Origin: Prochlorococcus marinus str. MIT 9211
GTDB taxonomy: Bacteria > Cyanobacteriota > Cyanobacteriia > PCC-6307 > Cyanobiaceae
Reading direction: 5' to 3'
DNA: 64,000 nucleotides
NCBI RefSeq assembly: GCF_000018585.1
Contig: NC_009976.1
Location: forward strand, 1,357,941-1,421,940
Shown here in pieces: positions 4,428 through 14,965 of the stretch. The notes below the pieces were generated by a model. It was not told the DNA's origin. It saw only the letters and a list, made by a program, of their open reading frames with translations, and did not search any database. Position numbers and translations under genes: made by a program. Every line of letters begins with the position of its first letter. Within the stretch, counting starts at the first letter, position 1.

Positions 4428-6146
4428 CTATTCAACAAAGTAGGGGTTTTTTTTCATATAAACTTCTTGACCTTGGGTTTCACCAGTTGTAATACCTTTA
4501 CTGCTAGACCTAAAAGTAATATATTTCCCTTCTTTAGTTATATTTGGATCTCGAAGGTGATCATCAAATTCATAAGACTCATCAAATAACCTCTTTACTT
4601 GATTAGAAGAAGTATCATAGACAAAAATGTCACTTTTACCCGTAGTTGGAGTATCCGTAAGATTCGTTGCTGATGACTGGAAAACAACATATTTACCATC
4701 ACCAGAGAACTTACCTGTGTGTGAGTAGCCATTGCCAGAATTACCATTTGAATTCTGACTAATTACCTTTAACTTCCCAGAGCTCAGATCTTTCATATAA
4801 AGTTGGGCGACGCCATTTGAACCTCTACTTGTAAAGATAACTTTTGATCCATCTGCCGAAATTTGTGACCCAGAACCATATTGACCAAAGTCAGACAATC
4901 TATTCCCCTGACTATCTGCTGTAACCAAAGAAACTTTGGAAGTATTAAAGTCTTTGACATAAAGGTTTGTACCACTTACACCTTCTACGAGATCATCTCC
5001 TTTATAGATAAAAGTTACTTTTGACCCATCATCACTCATCCCCATCCCATATCCACCATTGGATCCCCACCCAGTTCCAGTAGAACCATCTGGTGCTGTT
5101 GTAACAGTAGAAAGTTCTCCTGTTAATAAGTCTTTTCTATACATCAATGTTCTCGACCAGTCTTTAGATTGCCATTCAGCTTCAGGTAATCCTGCAAATC
5201 GAACATCAGGACTTTCAAAAATAACATATCTACCATCCGAAGACATTGAAGCATCCCTAATTCCCCATTTCGTCTGGATTTTTGTTCCATTACTAAGTGT
5301 ATCTACCCGAACTACGTCTCCTGTAAGAAGGTCTTTTCGATAAATCGGTTGAGGACCTTCACATTGTCCTCTTGGATCACACTCTTCTCCTGTTATTGCT
5401 CCTGGCAACCCGTCAAGATCAACTGAGCCATACTCGTCAATAGTAAACAGAGCATACCTACCATCACAAGACATCCCTCTTATATGCTGACTGTCGCCTG
5501 TTGATGGAATCCCTTCTTTTGTTGAAGTGATTAATACCTTTTCACCAGTAATTATATTCTGTCGATATTGATTATTTCTCTCTGTGTAACCCCCTCTTCC
5601 TCTAGAGGTCACATACTTCCCATCACAGCTAATGATAGTGTTATCTCCATTTCCATCAGAAAGCTTCAGAAGGTCGACATCTAAGCCATTGGTTTCAGGC
5701 TCTTCCACTTCATTTAATGCGACATCAGTAATAACAGCAACCTCCCCTAAAGAAGGTTTTTCTTTTGCAACAGCTACTTTCTTGCAACTTGGGAACCCCG
5801 TTGACTCTGCATTCTTATAGCTACAAGTTATTAGTCCAGTTTCTGAGTCATAACTATATTGAGGGTTATTTTCTTCATCTCTAGGGATTGCACTCGCAGA
5901 TTCACAATTACCGATCAATGAATATCGAGGGATTCTTCTAGGTGTAAAAGTACCAGGCGATCCAAAAATATAATCGCTTTGACATTCATCTCTGATCTGA
6001 CGCATAGCCTGTCCTGCGCCAACTGAATTACCACGGCGCACAAGTGACAGGAACTGAGGTCCTAGCAAGGCACTGAGCATAGAGATAACAGCCATTACAA
6101 CTGCCATCTCAATCAAAGTGAATGCTTTGTTCTTTTCAATGTCCAT
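4428..6146 (-). CDS. Type IV pilin-like protein fused to a TolB/WD40-like beta-propeller
   Basis: 572 residues. The N-terminus is a prepilin signal: a short charged leader, then AFTLIEMAVVMAVISMLSAL, which prepilin peptidase would cleave before a Phe-class residue and which forms the N-terminal pilin helix. From about residue 170 onward there are seven repeats of the form SxDGKYVxFxS (for example SCDGRYALFT, SSDGRYVIFES, SADGSKVIFTS), typical of PD40/TolB beta-propeller blades. The likely product is a surface-exposed minor pilin carrying a propeller, perhaps for adhesion or ligand binding. The two domain types are clear; their joint function is inferred. It lies between repeat copies A and B as a single-gene cassette, transcribed opposite to them. 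Confidence 0.8.
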   Translation of the reverse strand: MDIEKNKAFTLIEMAVVMAVISMLSALLGPQFLSLVRRGNSVGAGQAMRQIRDECQSDYIFGSPGTFTPRRIPRYSLIGNCESASAIPRDEENNPQYSYDSETGLITCSYKNAESTGFPSCKKVAVAKEKPSLGEVAVITDVALNEVEEPETNGLDVDLLKLSDGNGDNTIISCDGKYVTSRGRGGYTERNNQYRQNIITGEKVLITSTKEGIPSTGDSQHIRGMSCDGRYALFTIDEYGSVDLDGLPGAITGEECDPRGQCEGPQPIYRKDLLTGDVVRVDTLSNGTKIQTKWGIRDASMSSDGRYVIFESPDVRFAGLPEAEWQSKDWSRTLMYRKDLLTGELSTVTTAPDGSTGTGWGSNGGYGMGMSDDGSKVTFIYKGDDLVEGVSGTNLYVKDFNTSKVSLVTADSQGNRLSDFGQYGSGSQISADGSKVIFTSRGSNGVAQLYMKDLSSGKLKVISQNSNGNSGNGYSHTGKFSGDGKYVVFQSSATNLTDTPTTGKSDIFVYDTSSNQVKRLFDESYEFDDHLRDPNITKEGKYITFRSSSKGITTGETQGQEVYMKKNPYFVE

Positions 6147-6267
6147 AGCAACATCATTGAGTTACTTACTTCATCCAAGCAAAACCAGGTTCCCAAGACA
6201 CTAGAAATTTATAATTAGGCAAGAAAAAGTATTAAAGGTCTCAGTTAGTCATCAAAACTTGGTTGAA

Positions 6268-6448: not shown

Positions 6449-7033
6449 TTAATATCCATCATATTCAGGACGACATTGTGGGTATTGCCTCATAAGTATC
6501 TGTGCAGGCAATCTATTTGATAAAGACTCGCAATCAACAGGAGGGAAGCCATCACACCCACCTATGGCTTCGCAATGCGCTCTACAATTAGGGTCTGTCT
6601 CACAATCACCAGGAAGTGGGGGAGGGATCGCTTGATCTAAACAAGATTTATATGAGTTTGGCCAATTACTTTTAACTCCAGTAGACATATTCAAACTAAT
6701 CACACAAGGAAACTCTTCTGTTTGACCATTAATAGTTGCCGTCATCTCACCTGAGCAATCTGTTGCTGCAAAAACAACTCCTGGAATAGGTGGTCCGGTA
6801 GGAGGAGAGTCAGGATCATTGACACATTCGGAATGAGATTGACTGAGAGACATTTTTGTTGCTGAAAAGATTGCCTCATTCAACAAATTAATAATGTTAG
6901 GTAGCCCAATCGCAGCCAAAATTGCAAGGACAGCAATCACAACGACTAACTCAAGCAAAGAAAATCCTTTATCACCCTTTTTACGAGGAAGCTTTTTAAT
7001 TAGATGTAGTTGCAGCCGATTATGCAAAATCAT
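6449..7033 (-). CDS. Cys-rich type IV pilin-like protein
   Basis: About 194 residues. A leader of ~23 residues ending KKGDKG precedes FSLLELVVVIAVLAILAAIG, the classic prepilin N-terminal helix with Glu at +5. The mature part has many Cys (for example CETDPNCRAHCEAIGGCDG) and Pro-rich loops, so several disulfides are likely. It would be processed by prepilin peptidase and placed in a type IV pilus or pseudopilus; no assembly genes (pilB, C, D, Q) are in the window. ATG 7033 is preferred to TTG 7036. Its stop codon lies 2 bp from the second motif pair of copy B, and copy C lies upstream, so it too is a one-gene cassette. Confidence 0.8.
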   Translation of the reverse strand: MILHNRLQLHLIKKLPRKKGDKGFSLLELVVVIAVLAILAAIGLPNIINLLNEAIFSATKMSLSQSHSECVNDPDSPPTGPPIPGVVFAATDCSGEMTATINGQTEEFPCVISLNMSTGVKSNWPNSYKSCLDQAIPPPLPGDCETDPNCRAHCEAIGGCDGFPPVDCESLSNRLPAQILMRQYPQCRPEYDGY

Positions 7034-7137
7034 CAAACCTATCTAATTAGTTTAATAATTCACACTAAAGATGACTCAAGAAAGCAAGAAAGTCCAAACT
7101 TGGCAAGAATAGAAAAAAGCAAAGCGAACAAAGTTTC

Positions 7138-8202: not shown

Positions 8203-9714
8203 TTGCCACAGATTCAACTTCAAGAGAGGGTATTAAATGGTCGTGGCAGAGTTCTTCTTTACGGCTCAGGAACGAGTGCTGGCAAGTGGTATTACAAAGA
8301 AAAAGTAGAAGGACAAAGAAGGTATAAAGAGAAGCAATTATTTGGAGCGAGTTCTTTAGAACAAGCCATTGCAATGGCACCAGAAGCAGCCATTGAGTTA
8401 GCAAAAGAACCAGAGAAGAAACCGAGTTACCGATATGCATCTGATCCTCTAACTCTGATTCAACGAGAAGAGAAAAGAGAACGTCCAAAAATAGATCTAG
8501 AAGTAGCGATGGATCAGTGGCTATCAGAGCAAGAAAAACGTGTCGATGCTGGAGCATTTCAACCAGCGAGCTATAGCCATAAATTCAATTGCTGTCGGCA
8601 CATCAAGCTCTATTTAAAAAAGAAGAAAGTTACCTTTACCACTCAAATCAATCCAACAACATTTGATGATTACCCTGTCTATCGGCTCAAACAAACAGAT
8701 AAAAGAATCGTTATCCATCGAGAGCTTGCAGTCTTAGGTGAATTTATAAAGAGCTATCTGGTTAAACATAAATACATCCCTGCACACCTATGGCTGGATG
8801 GTCAGTTCCTACCAAGAGTGAAAGTTAGAGATACAGATCGAGACGCTAACCCTGCCATTAATCCAGAAGATTGGAGAACCATTATTGACTACATCAGAGA
8901 GGAGTGGAGGCCATTGGCATATGAGAAAGATCAGTTTGGGAGGAGATCAGAGAAGTCCATCTATTTCCGCAACATGTTTTGGCATTGGTTATTAATTGCC
9001 AAGAGCACAGGCATGTCCCCCGAGGAGATCTGCAAGATGAAATGGAAGAGTGTCGAGATTATTGATGTTGGACGAATTAGTAAATCAAAAGCGATAGAAG
9101 AGTACGAACAGATCCTTGATGAGATCAGAGAAGAAGGTAAAGAAGGTGAGATCTATATCGAACCTCCTAACTTAGATATCAATCCATCTGACTGGGTTCT
9201 AAATCACGATGCCTGGGGACGAGAAGAACGACTGATTTCATTTATCACTACTGTTAGAGCCAAGACATCGAGAGTTAGAGAGATTCCTTGCAACCTTGGT
9301 TATGTCTTCAGGAGATGGAAGTACTTTCTAGAGAATGAACTCAAACACAAGGTCAGAGGTGATGACTATGTGTTTGCTCAGATCCACAATGAGATGAAGC
9401 AACCCAACCAAAGAAAGATCCAACAGCATTGGAGATGGGCTGTTGATAAATTGATGGATGAAGGAAAACTCAAAGGTCATAAGTTCTCTGATCGCCCCTA
9501 TACCCTCTACTCATTGCGATCTACTTTCATTGAAAATCACTTAATGAAAGGAACAGATATCTTCTTGTTAGCTCGTATATGTGGCAATAGCGTTAAGACA
9601 ATCATGGACACCTACGAAAGAATAGACATACGTAAGAGAACTAAAGAGATTACTGATATTGAGTATGGAAAGAAGACAAGCAATGCAGCAGTGGTTCAGC
9701 TGTATGCTGACTAA
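8203..9714 (+). CDS. Tyrosine recombinase (phage-type site-specific integrase)
   Basis: 503 residues. The N-terminal ~80 residues (GSGTSAGKWYYKEKVEGQRR...) fit an arm-type DNA-binding domain, followed by a core-binding domain and a C-terminal catalytic domain. Recognisable are box I STGMSPEEICKMKW, a Lys in AKTSRVREIP, box II SLRSTFIENHL and the nucleophile Tyr in GNSVKTIMDTYERI. The normal box I Arg reads Ser (codon TCC) in this copy, and the box II His is Tyr, so activity is uncertain. The start is TTG 8203, as no in-frame ATG precedes it closely. It probably moves or once moved the island units. Motif pairs abut its start. Confidence 0.85.
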   Translation: MPQIQLQERVLNGRGRVLLYGSGTSAGKWYYKEKVEGQRRYKEKQLFGASSLEQAIAMAPEAAIELAKEPEKKPSYRYASDPLTLIQREEKRERPKIDLEVAMDQWLSEQEKRVDAGAFQPASYSHKFNCCRHIKLYLKKKKVTFTTQINPTTFDDYPVYRLKQTDKRIVIHRELAVLGEFIKSYLVKHKYIPAHLWLDGQFLPRVKVRDTDRDANPAINPEDWRTIIDYIREEWRPLAYEKDQFGRRSEKSIYFRNMFWHWLLIAKSTGMSPEEICKMKWKSVEIIDVGRISKSKAIEEYEQILDEIREEGKEGEIYIEPPNLDINPSDWVLNHDAWGREERLISFITTVRAKTSRVREIPCNLGYVFRRWKYFLENELKHKVRGDDYVFAQIHNEMKQPNQRKIQQHWRWAVDKLMDEGKLKGHKFSDRPYTLYSLRSTFIENHLMKGTDIFLLARICGNSVKTIMDTYERIDIRKRTKEITDIEYGKKTSNAAVVQLYAD

Positions 9715-12756: not shown

Positions 12757-13680
12757 ATGGATCAAAAGCAGGAGAAAAGAGAGAAGGAAGAAACTGAACA
12801 ACTCAAGAGCTCAGAACAAACCTCATCAACAGCAGAAATACTAACCTCAGTTTTTGACGAAATAGAAAGTCGTTCTAATGGGACTTCTGTGGCTGGTATC
12901 CCCGTCAATTTCTATGACTTTGATGCAATGACTCAAGGTCTACAACGAGGATCTTTGAATGTTATTGCTGGCAGACCTGCCATGGGCAAAACATCGCTAT
13001 GCCTGAACATCGCAAAAAATGTTGCCCAGATTCACGACTTACCTGTCTGCCTATTTGGCCTTGAAATGAGCAAAGAGTGTTATACGTATCGTCTGCTTTC
13101 AATGGAAGTTGGAATTGAAACAGGAAGGCTTAGAACAGGAAGGCTTCAACAAGACGAATGGTCAATCCTTGGAAAAGGTATTGAAACTATTGGCAAGTTA
13201 CCCATTTTTATTAATGACAAAGCTGCAATCACTGTTGAAGAAATACGTGCCACGTGCGAAAGAATCAAAAAAGAACAAGGAAATGGTGAACTTGGGTTAG
13301 TCGTTATTGATTATGTACAACTTATGGATGGTCAGAGATACATGGAATGTCGAGATGCAGAGCTAGGAAGAATAGTGAGTGATCTTAAAAATATGGCCAC
13401 ACAATTAAATGTTCCACTCCTTCTAATGTCTCAACTTAGTCGTGACATTGAACATAGAGAAAATAAACGTCCCATGCTTTGTGATTTAAGAGAAACACAA
13501 TCACTAGAAAGCGATGCAGATATGGTCGTAATGATTTATCGAGAGGAGTACTACCACCCTGAAACTTGTGATCGAGGCATTACAGAACTCATCACTTGCA
13601 AGCATCGCAATGGTCCCCTCGGTACCGTGAAACTCCTATTTGAACCACAGTTCACAAGGTTTAGGAATTTGGCGGCTTAG
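12757..13680 (+). CDS. DnaB-family helicase ATPase domain (lacks the usual N-terminal domain)
   Basis: 307 residues that match only the RecA-like C-terminal domain of replicative helicase DnaB: Walker A GRPAMGKT at 72-79, the DnaB-like GLEMSKECYTYRLLSME, Walker B LVVIDYVQLM at 181-190, MSQLSRDIEHRENKRPMLCDL and a C-terminal KHRNGPLGTVKLLF. Cellular DnaB is ~450-470 residues with an N-terminal DnaG-interacting domain; here the first ~40 residues are only a charged linker. Stand-alone helicase cores occur in phages and phage satellites. Proximity to an integrase suggests element replication. The next gene starts 4 bp downstream, so they may be cotranscribed. Confidence 0.85.
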   Translation: MDQKQEKREKEETEQLKSSEQTSSTAEILTSVFDEIESRSNGTSVAGIPVNFYDFDAMTQGLQRGSLNVIAGRPAMGKTSLCLNIAKNVAQIHDLPVCLFGLEMSKECYTYRLLSMEVGIETGRLRTGRLQQDEWSILGKGIETIGKLPIFINDKAAITVEEIRATCERIKKEQGNGELGLVVIDYVQLMDGQRYMECRDAELGRIVSDLKNMATQLNVPLLLMSQLSRDIEHRENKRPMLCDLRETQSLESDADMVVMIYREEYYHPETCDRGITELITCKHRNGPLGTVKLLFEPQFTRFRNLAA

Positions 13681-13684
13681 AACA

Positions 13685-14965
13685 ATGGAAATCAATGAAA
13701 ACTCAAGCCGTGAAGATGTTCTTGCTGCTTTGAACTTAAGAAATGACATGCTAATGCGTGTCGATGAGAAGTTCAGAAGTGATCGGGAAGTCGTTCTTGC
13801 AGCTGTTAAAGCATGTGGCAATGCTCTTCAATATGCCTCAGACGAATTGAAAGCCGACCGGGAATTCGTTCTTACAGCTGTCAAAGGAAATGGTTATGCA
13901 CTCCAATATGCCTCTGACAATTTCAAAGCCGATCGAGAAGTTGTTCTTGCCGCTGTTAAGTCACATGTTTGGGCATTTCAATATGCCTCAGACGAATTGA
14001 AAGCCGACCGGGAATTCGTTCTGGAAGCTGTTAAGTCACATGGTAAGGCACTTCAATATGCCTCTGACGAATTAAAAGCGGATCGAGAAGTTGTTCTTGC
14101 TGCTGTTAAACAATCTGGTTATCCACTCCAATATGCCTCTGACGATTTAAAAGCGGATCGGGAAGTCGTTCTTGCAGCTGTTGAAAGATTTGATGATGCT
14201 CTTGAATATGCCTCTGACGATTTAAGAGCTGACCGGGAAGTCGTTCTTACAGCTGTTAGAACAGTTGGTATTGGTGCATGGGGCGGTGCGCTTCGATATG
14301 CCTCTGACGATTTAAAAGCGGATCGGGAAGTCGTTCTTGCAGCTGTTAAGTCATATGGTTGGGCATTTCAATATGCCTCAGACGAATTGAAAGCCGACCG
14401 GGAATTCGTTCTGGAAGCTGTTAAGTCACATGGTTGGGCATTTCAATATGCCTCTGACAATTTCAAAGCCGATCGGGAAGTCGTTCTGGAAGCTGTTAAA
14501 ACCGATGGCGATGCTCTTCAATATGCCTCTGACGATTTCAAAGCTGACCGGGAAGTGGTTCTGGAAGCTGTTAAAACATATAGCTATGCTCTTGAATATG
14601 CCTCTGACGATTTAAAAGCGGATCGGGAAGTCGTTCTTGCAGCTGTTAAAGCATGTGGCAATGCTCTTCAATATGCCTCAGACGAATTGAAAGCCGACCG
14701 GGAAGTCGTTCTTACAGCTGTTAGAACAGTTGGTATTGGTGCATGGGGCGGTGCGCTTCGATATGCCTCTGACGATTTAAAAGCGGATCGGGAAGTCGTT
14801 CTTGCAGCTGTTAAAGCATGTGGCAATGCTCTTGAATATGCCTCTGACAATTTCAAAGCTGACCGGGAAGTCGTTCTGGAAGCTGTTAAGTCACATGGTA
14901 AGGCACTTCAATATGCCTCTGACGAATTAAAAGCGGATCCTGAATTGATAAAAATTTTGAGCTGA
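13685..14965 (+). CDS. DUF4116 repeat protein (about 16 repeats)
   Basis: About 426 residues from ATG 13685, built almost wholly from ~25-residue repeats of the form ALQYASDELKADREVVLAAV, the DUF4116 signature, whose function is unknown. Each repeat probably forms a helix pair, giving an extended solenoid for protein binding. No signal peptide or membrane span. Some repeats carry a longer insert (TVGIGAWGG), and that long version occurs twice with identical DNA. It follows the helicase by 4 bp. An upstream in-frame extension to 13640 overlaps the helicase and was rejected. Confidence 0.85.
   Translation: MEINENSSREDVLAALNLRNDMLMRVDEKFRSDREVVLAAVKACGNALQYASDELKADREFVLTAVKGNGYALQYASDNFKADREVVLAAVKSHVWAFQYASDELKADREFVLEAVKSHGKALQYASDELKADREVVLAAVKQSGYPLQYASDDLKADREVVLAAVERFDDALEYASDDLRADREVVLTAVRTVGIGAWGGALRYASDDLKADREVVLAAVKSYGWAFQYASDELKADREFVLEAVKSHGWAFQYASDNFKADREVVLEAVKTDGDALQYASDDFKADREVVLEAVKTYSYALEYASDDLKADREVVLAAVKACGNALQYASDELKADREVVLTAVRTVGIGAWGGALRYASDDLKADREVVLAAVKACGNALEYASDNFKADREVVLEAVKSHGKALQYASDELKADPELIKILS
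13790..14940 (+). repeat. ~75-bp coding tandem repeats of the DUF4116 gene
   Basis: DNA unit of ~75 bp centred on AATATGCCTCTGACGA and GATCGGGAAGTCGTTCTT. Long stretches are duplicated exactly: a ~69-bp block near 13796 recurs near 14636, and a ~95-bp block near 14251 recurs near 14709. This is recent internal duplication within a reading frame, not a CRISPR array. Confidence 0.85.

Follow-up and report, generated by a model that had tools for sequence, protein, structure and literature searches.

Anatomy of the propeller pilin and its neighbors

A 572-aa prepilin is encoded on the minus strand at positions 4428–6146 of the window, the whole 64-kb stretch of DNA analyzed here. The gene is an uninterrupted ORF with an ATG start, and its product has a two-module architecture, in which a leader and pilin stem are joined by a linker to a C-terminal domain predicted to be a seven-bladed propeller. 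Two Pfam domains score over their cut-offs, namely N_methyl (aa 5–28; E = 7e-6) and PD40 (aa 429–451; E = 4e-6), the latter as a single repeat. Among NCBIfam models, the prepilin domain (TIGR02532) also exceeds its cut-off, and matches to TolB are weak and below cut-off. The type IV prepilin proposed for this position in the first-pass annotation is supported both by the ORF, which lies as placed, and by the N_methyl match.

The leader peptide (MDIEKNKA; 6123–6146, minus strand), recognized from the sequence and from the N_methyl and TIGR02532 matches, is of class III, with a predicted prepilin peptidase cut between Ala8 and FTLIE, Glu at mature position +5 and then a hydrophobic helix of about 20 residues. 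The residue at position −1 is Ala, not Gly; prepilin cleavage is known after either residue (PMC10191384). The mature stem (aa 9–123; 5778–6122, minus strand), delimited by alignments and a profile search, comprises the hydrophobic helix followed by a globular domain, and alignments show that C55, C81 and C121 are conserved throughout the stem family. A linker that is weakly conserved in the sliding identity analysis (aa 124–169; 5640–5777, minus strand) connects the stem to a putative PD40/TolB-like propeller head (aa 170–572; 4431–5639, minus strand). The prepilin helix had been described as leading directly into the blades, a claim that is off by well over 100 residues because a stem of about 115 residues and a linker of about 45 residues precede the head. 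This is the architecture of a modular pilin: a stem that is conserved with other heads, plus a PD40/propeller domain that is not specific to pili.

The head contains exactly seven [DE]G[KRS][YK]-hydrophobic-x-[FS] motifs (at aa 173, 226, 302, 371, 430, 481, and 537). In 2000 shuffled heads, a looser form of the motif matched 0.15 times on average and three times at most. AlphaFold2, run on a single sequence, gave a model of the head alone with seven strand groups (pTM 0.71, mean pLDDT 63.6); the corresponding single-sequence model of the full-length protein was poor (pLDDT 49). When the head model was compared with the PDB using Foldseek, TolB ranked first (E = 4e-14), and the matches included S9-peptidase propellers (TMq ~0.5) and oligogalacturonate lyase 3pe7 (TMq 0.52, TMt 0.57). 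The seven motifs, the strand groups and the fold matches together support a seven-bladed propeller fold with moderate model confidence. The seven-motif propeller of the first reading therefore withstands structure prediction, in which the head is modeled as a propeller. TolB is a soluble periplasmic protein of the Tol-Pal system. The pilin head resembles TolB/PD40 propellers in predicted fold and DG repeat signature, but it is tethered to a pilin and shares only about 14–19% identity with TolB.

The host genome (G000; 1,688,963 bp, one contig) contains six N_methyl pilin matches. A check for pil assembly genes elsewhere in this genome revealed one region encoding PilN, PilO, PilM, PilC (T2SSF), PilT- and PilB-like ATPases, PilD and further pilins, with a secretin gene adjoining it. 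According to one report (PMC7994388), low-light Prochlorococcus clades frequently encode pili or are piliated, and pili of marine Synechococcus influence sinking and grazing. Given the six pilin matches, the assembly set and the frequent piliation of low-light clades, the host is not the appendage-poor organism that it had been taken for.

A neighboring prepilin of 195 aa (6449–7036, minus strand) was assigned by Pfam and stem comparison to a second stem type, with a Cys-rich head of about 60 aa. Its stem shares 48% amino acid identity over 118 aa with that of a lectin-headed pilin in genome G228 (L082:7989-8921). Two further genes near the pilins, encoding a divergent tyrosine recombinase (8203–9714, plus strand; Pfam integrase E = 1e-4, below cut-off) and a DnaB_C-only helicase (12757–13680, plus strand), look like parts of an island or integrative element. 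A 441-aa protein encoded at 13640–14965 (plus strand) carries many repeats of the type ADREVVLAAVKxxGxALxYASDxLK.

Distribution of propeller pilins and separate histories of stem and head

A search of 400 genomes of the family retrieved two more full-length relatives of the propeller pilin, from genomes G089 (55% identity) and G129 (53% identity) of two other genera. Each is a single ORF in an independent genome, and three propeller pilins are known in total. Outside the family, no pilin-propeller fusion was found in 339 genomes of the phylum, in which matches corresponded to the head in other ORFs or to the pilin end only. The expectation that a propeller on a pilin would be rare is thus confirmed for these genomes. 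The distribution is sporadic and non-syntenic: propeller pilins occur in one of the 41 genomes of the G129 genus and one of the 34 genomes of the G089 genus, and the three loci share no flanking genes.

Several vehicles for this distribution were considered and rejected. Phage records and viral contigs contain no match to the propeller pilin, and viral fold matches are generic propellers, so a phage origin is not supported. An insertion site at a tRNA gene was dismissed since no tRNA lies in the 64-kb window or in loci L040, L041 and L076. The recombinase-like genes near the host pilins (8203–9714) and in G089 (L040:9677-11131) show no tblastn match to one another, and the ORF beside the G129 propeller pilin has no Pfam match; no common mobile element is therefore claimed.

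Sequence identity among the three propeller pilins is about 30% over aa 1–150 and rises to about 60% over aa 166–572, with the step at aa ~151–165, within the linker. Between genomes, the propeller heads are 54–62% identical and the corresponding stems 30–36%. Within a genome, the stems are much more alike. The host propeller stem shares 82% identity with a second host stem that lies about 15 kb away and carries a short, unrelated head, and the G129 propeller stem shares 69–90% identity with six stems that bear lectin heads in that genome. At the DNA level, the host stem cassette (5773–6213, minus strand; beginning about 67 bp before the ATG and reaching codon ~125, as delimited by blastn and sliding identity) is 83% identical over 447 bp to the second copy (G000:C1, ~1348.98–1349.43 kb). 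The shared block extends from about −60 bp relative to the start codon to codon ~125, stopping at the last stem cysteine, and both flanks are unrelated.

The gene containing the second cassette copy (L038:8709-9359, minus strand) encodes a 93-residue head that has no known domain and may have decayed or been truncated. A propeller or lectin remnant behind this stem was searched for with tblastn and not found, and there was no Rfam match.

A stem tree was used to compare these histories; the placement of single rows in it is unsure because stem divergence at about 30% identity produces long branches. In this tree, a single clade for the three propeller stems is rejected (delta lnL 160, p-AU 2e-48), as is a single clade for the lectin stems (p-AU 0.003), and a starred branch joins the G129 propeller stem with a G129 stem that bears a lectin head. 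An independent case was also found, in that one lectin head, 84% identical in G228 and G377, is carried on stems that are only 29% identical. The G228 stem is of the second stem type, the same type as in the neighboring prepilin of the window (6449–7036). At the level of sequence, these comparisons demonstrate that stem and head are inherited as separate modules, with separate histories.

Head classes of the wider stem family

Head classes were drawn from a stem-profile search and from further retrieved loci. They comprise C-type lectin-like heads (12 proteins), Excalibur/SNase heads (seven), propellers (three) and an unnamed class (two), plus single and low-complexity heads. Among 29 members of the stem family examined with Pfam, matches were found to Lectin_C in 10, Excalibur in seven, SNase in six and PD40 in three.

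Heads combining Excalibur and staphylococcal nuclease domains occur in G129 (L041:2605-3519, minus strand) and at five further loci (L045:5844-6734, L083:7068-8012, L086:183-1073, L088:5750-6640, and L091:5517-6407). In the SNase heads, three residues of the RLxxxDTPE motif (RLACIDTPE), namely its Arg, Asp and Glu, align with those of thermonuclease, as does a later arginine in YGR. Because these catalytic residues align, it is plausible that an active nuclease is carried on the pilus.

At least six C-type-lectin-headed pilins are encoded in G129 (L041, L042, L076, L077, and L078), with stems that are 65–97% identical and heads that are only 28–41% identical. A diversity-generating retroelement was rejected as the source of lectin head variation: RVT_1 is absent from the nine genomes searched, in which positive controls were detected, and the G129 lectin pilins are not a retroelement system because the genome has no reverse transcriptase. 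A tRNA-Pro(tgg) gene is found no more than about 1 kb from an orthologous lectin pilin in both G129 (L042:5990-6063) and G172 (L080:6565-6638). The unnamed head class is represented by two proteins that are 39% identical (L081:5677-6726, minus strand; L084:6834-7958, plus strand) and is common to G172 and G278, which belong to two different genera.

Proposed function, alternatives and related systems

We consider it fairly probable that the 572-aa protein is a minor modular type IV pilin with a binding head near the pilus tip, and that such heads are exchanged among picocyanobacterial stems. PilD would cleave the leader after Ala8, and the hydrophobic helix would enter the pilus via PilB and PilC, so that the protein may be assembled into pili. 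The bulky propeller would leave through the secretin and would probably be displayed at or near the tip, by analogy with other modular pilins. Tip-near display is proposed because of its bulk, as modeled for S. sanguinis PilB (PMC8179133). The propeller pilin need not be an apical cap; since Glu+5 is present, a place along the filament is possible. A rigid binding head on the pilus is the best reading of the propeller, which may act as an adhesin or as a receptor for a polymer, a particle or a cell surface. It would be one of an exchanged set that includes C-type lectins, Excalibur+SNase nucleases and others. Recombination over the stem cassette of about 440–490 bp may have spread heads horizontally, or may have duplicated and homogenized stems, and in this way would have fitted a lineage-specific stem with varied working ends. 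We infer recombination as the mechanism behind the exchange.

An enzymatic role, in which the pilus would bear a tool for cleaving or harvesting extracellular polymers and not a plain adhesin, is possible because sister pilins bear Excalibur+SNase heads with catalytic residues aligned to thermonuclease. The presence of propeller enzymes (oligogalacturonate lyase 3pe7 and S9 peptidases) among the Foldseek matches also agrees with it. We nevertheless regard this role as unlikely, since TolB-like, non-enzymatic propellers top the Foldseek ranking, the peptidase matches cover the propeller domain only in a protein that has no hydrolase domain, and no catalytic signature was found in the propeller head. 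There is likewise a small chance that the protein is processed as a prepilin but stays and works in the inner membrane or periplasm. Although many prepilin-like proteins are of low abundance and unproven in pili, and the head resembles periplasmic TolB, several features argue for a pilus subunit. Glu+5 and the canonical helix fit assembly, members of the stem family possess a complete globular pilin domain in which cysteines are conserved, the lectin and nuclease heads of this family are most sensible outside the cell, and the assembly machinery is present in the genome.

The similarity of stems within a genome might also reflect concerted evolution by gene conversion among local stems, with old stem-head pairs and no head ever having moved. 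The high stem identity of the lectin-headed pilins in G129 and the bounded block of conserved DNA are what such conversion would leave. As a sole explanation it is rather improbable, because propeller pilins are scattered within each genus at non-syntenic loci, and because one lectin head occurs on two unrelated stem types. Gene conversion and head transfer can both be operating, and the data do not fully separate them. That the fusion itself is an artefact of frame joining or misassembly, or a chance similarity of low complexity, might be suspected because Pfam scores so few repeats, only one PD40 exceeding its cut-off. This suspicion is refuted by the full-length relatives in G089 and G129, which are single ORFs in two independent genomes; the host ORF is moreover uninterrupted in a one-contig genome, and its head has seven motifs against 0.15 expected by chance, leaving a negligible probability of artefact.

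Modular pilins are already known (Raynaud, 2021), and a survey of type IV pilins counts more than 1,200 modular proteins in 264 architectures (PMC8179133). S. sanguinis PilB (vWA) and PilC (lectin) carry grafted modules, and PilB is described in the same text as an adhesin. These modular pilins (PMC8179133 and PMC9934059) share with the propeller pilin a class III signal peptide, a small pilin module, a linker and a bulky non-pilus module. The picocyanobacterial protein differs in that its module is a predicted PD40/TolB-type seven-bladed propeller, and in that one stem family bears several types of head, the two modules being inherited separately.

In the Kil/Tad system of Myxococcus, minor pilins whose outer domains vary serve as interchangeable tips of a single pilus (PMC12075869). 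That system is of the Tad kind, with gene clusters for heterotrimeric tips, and the accessible part of the report does not describe sharing of a stem cassette with moving heads. The PilA1/PilE pili of marine Synechococcus and Prochlorococcus belong to the same organism group and use the same kind of machinery; their pilins are the major and paired ones, which are linked to sinking and grazing, and propeller, lectin or nuclease heads go unmentioned in the accessible part of their description (PMC7994388).

In the PilY1/PilC tip adhesin, adhesion is served by a beta-propeller placed at the tip of the type IV pilus, as is proposed for the propeller pilin. PilY1 is a non-pilin that docks on minor pilins and has a propeller of the T4P_PilY1 family, whereas the protein described here is itself a prepilin and has no PF05567 match, so identity with PilY1 was rejected. 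A PF05567 search of five of the picocyanobacterial genomes gave no match, and the controls also gave none.

No report of propeller pilins or of stem/head exchange in picocyanobacteria was found in a literature search of incomplete coverage. As far as these searches reach, two features appear to be new: the placement of a PD40/TolB-type seven-bladed propeller on a pilin, which may however already be among the 264 architectures of PMC8179133, and the sharing of heads by different picocyanobacterial stems.

No photosynthetic organism is more abundant than Prochlorococcus, which is commonly regarded as a passive floater. The occurrence of one propeller on different stems, and of different heads on one stem, suggests that the picocyanobacteria change the functional ends of their pili as one changes the bits of a tool. 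A broader proposal, in which a shared pool of propellers, lectins and active nucleases is recombined onto lineage-specific stems so that strains quickly alter what their pili bind or cut, is held with somewhat less than even confidence. If true, it would amount to a pilin-built system of surface diversification, driven by encounters with phages, grazers or particles, and the exchangeable heads would allow specific, fast-changing contacts with particles, cells, phages and dissolved DNA. The family would also offer a natural case of modular pilin evolution, with a cassette boundary that is visible and testable. Stretches resembling the propeller head occur, several in each, in two giant open frames of 3510 and 3967 aa in other genomes (L094 and L095; G112:C26 and G207:C3).
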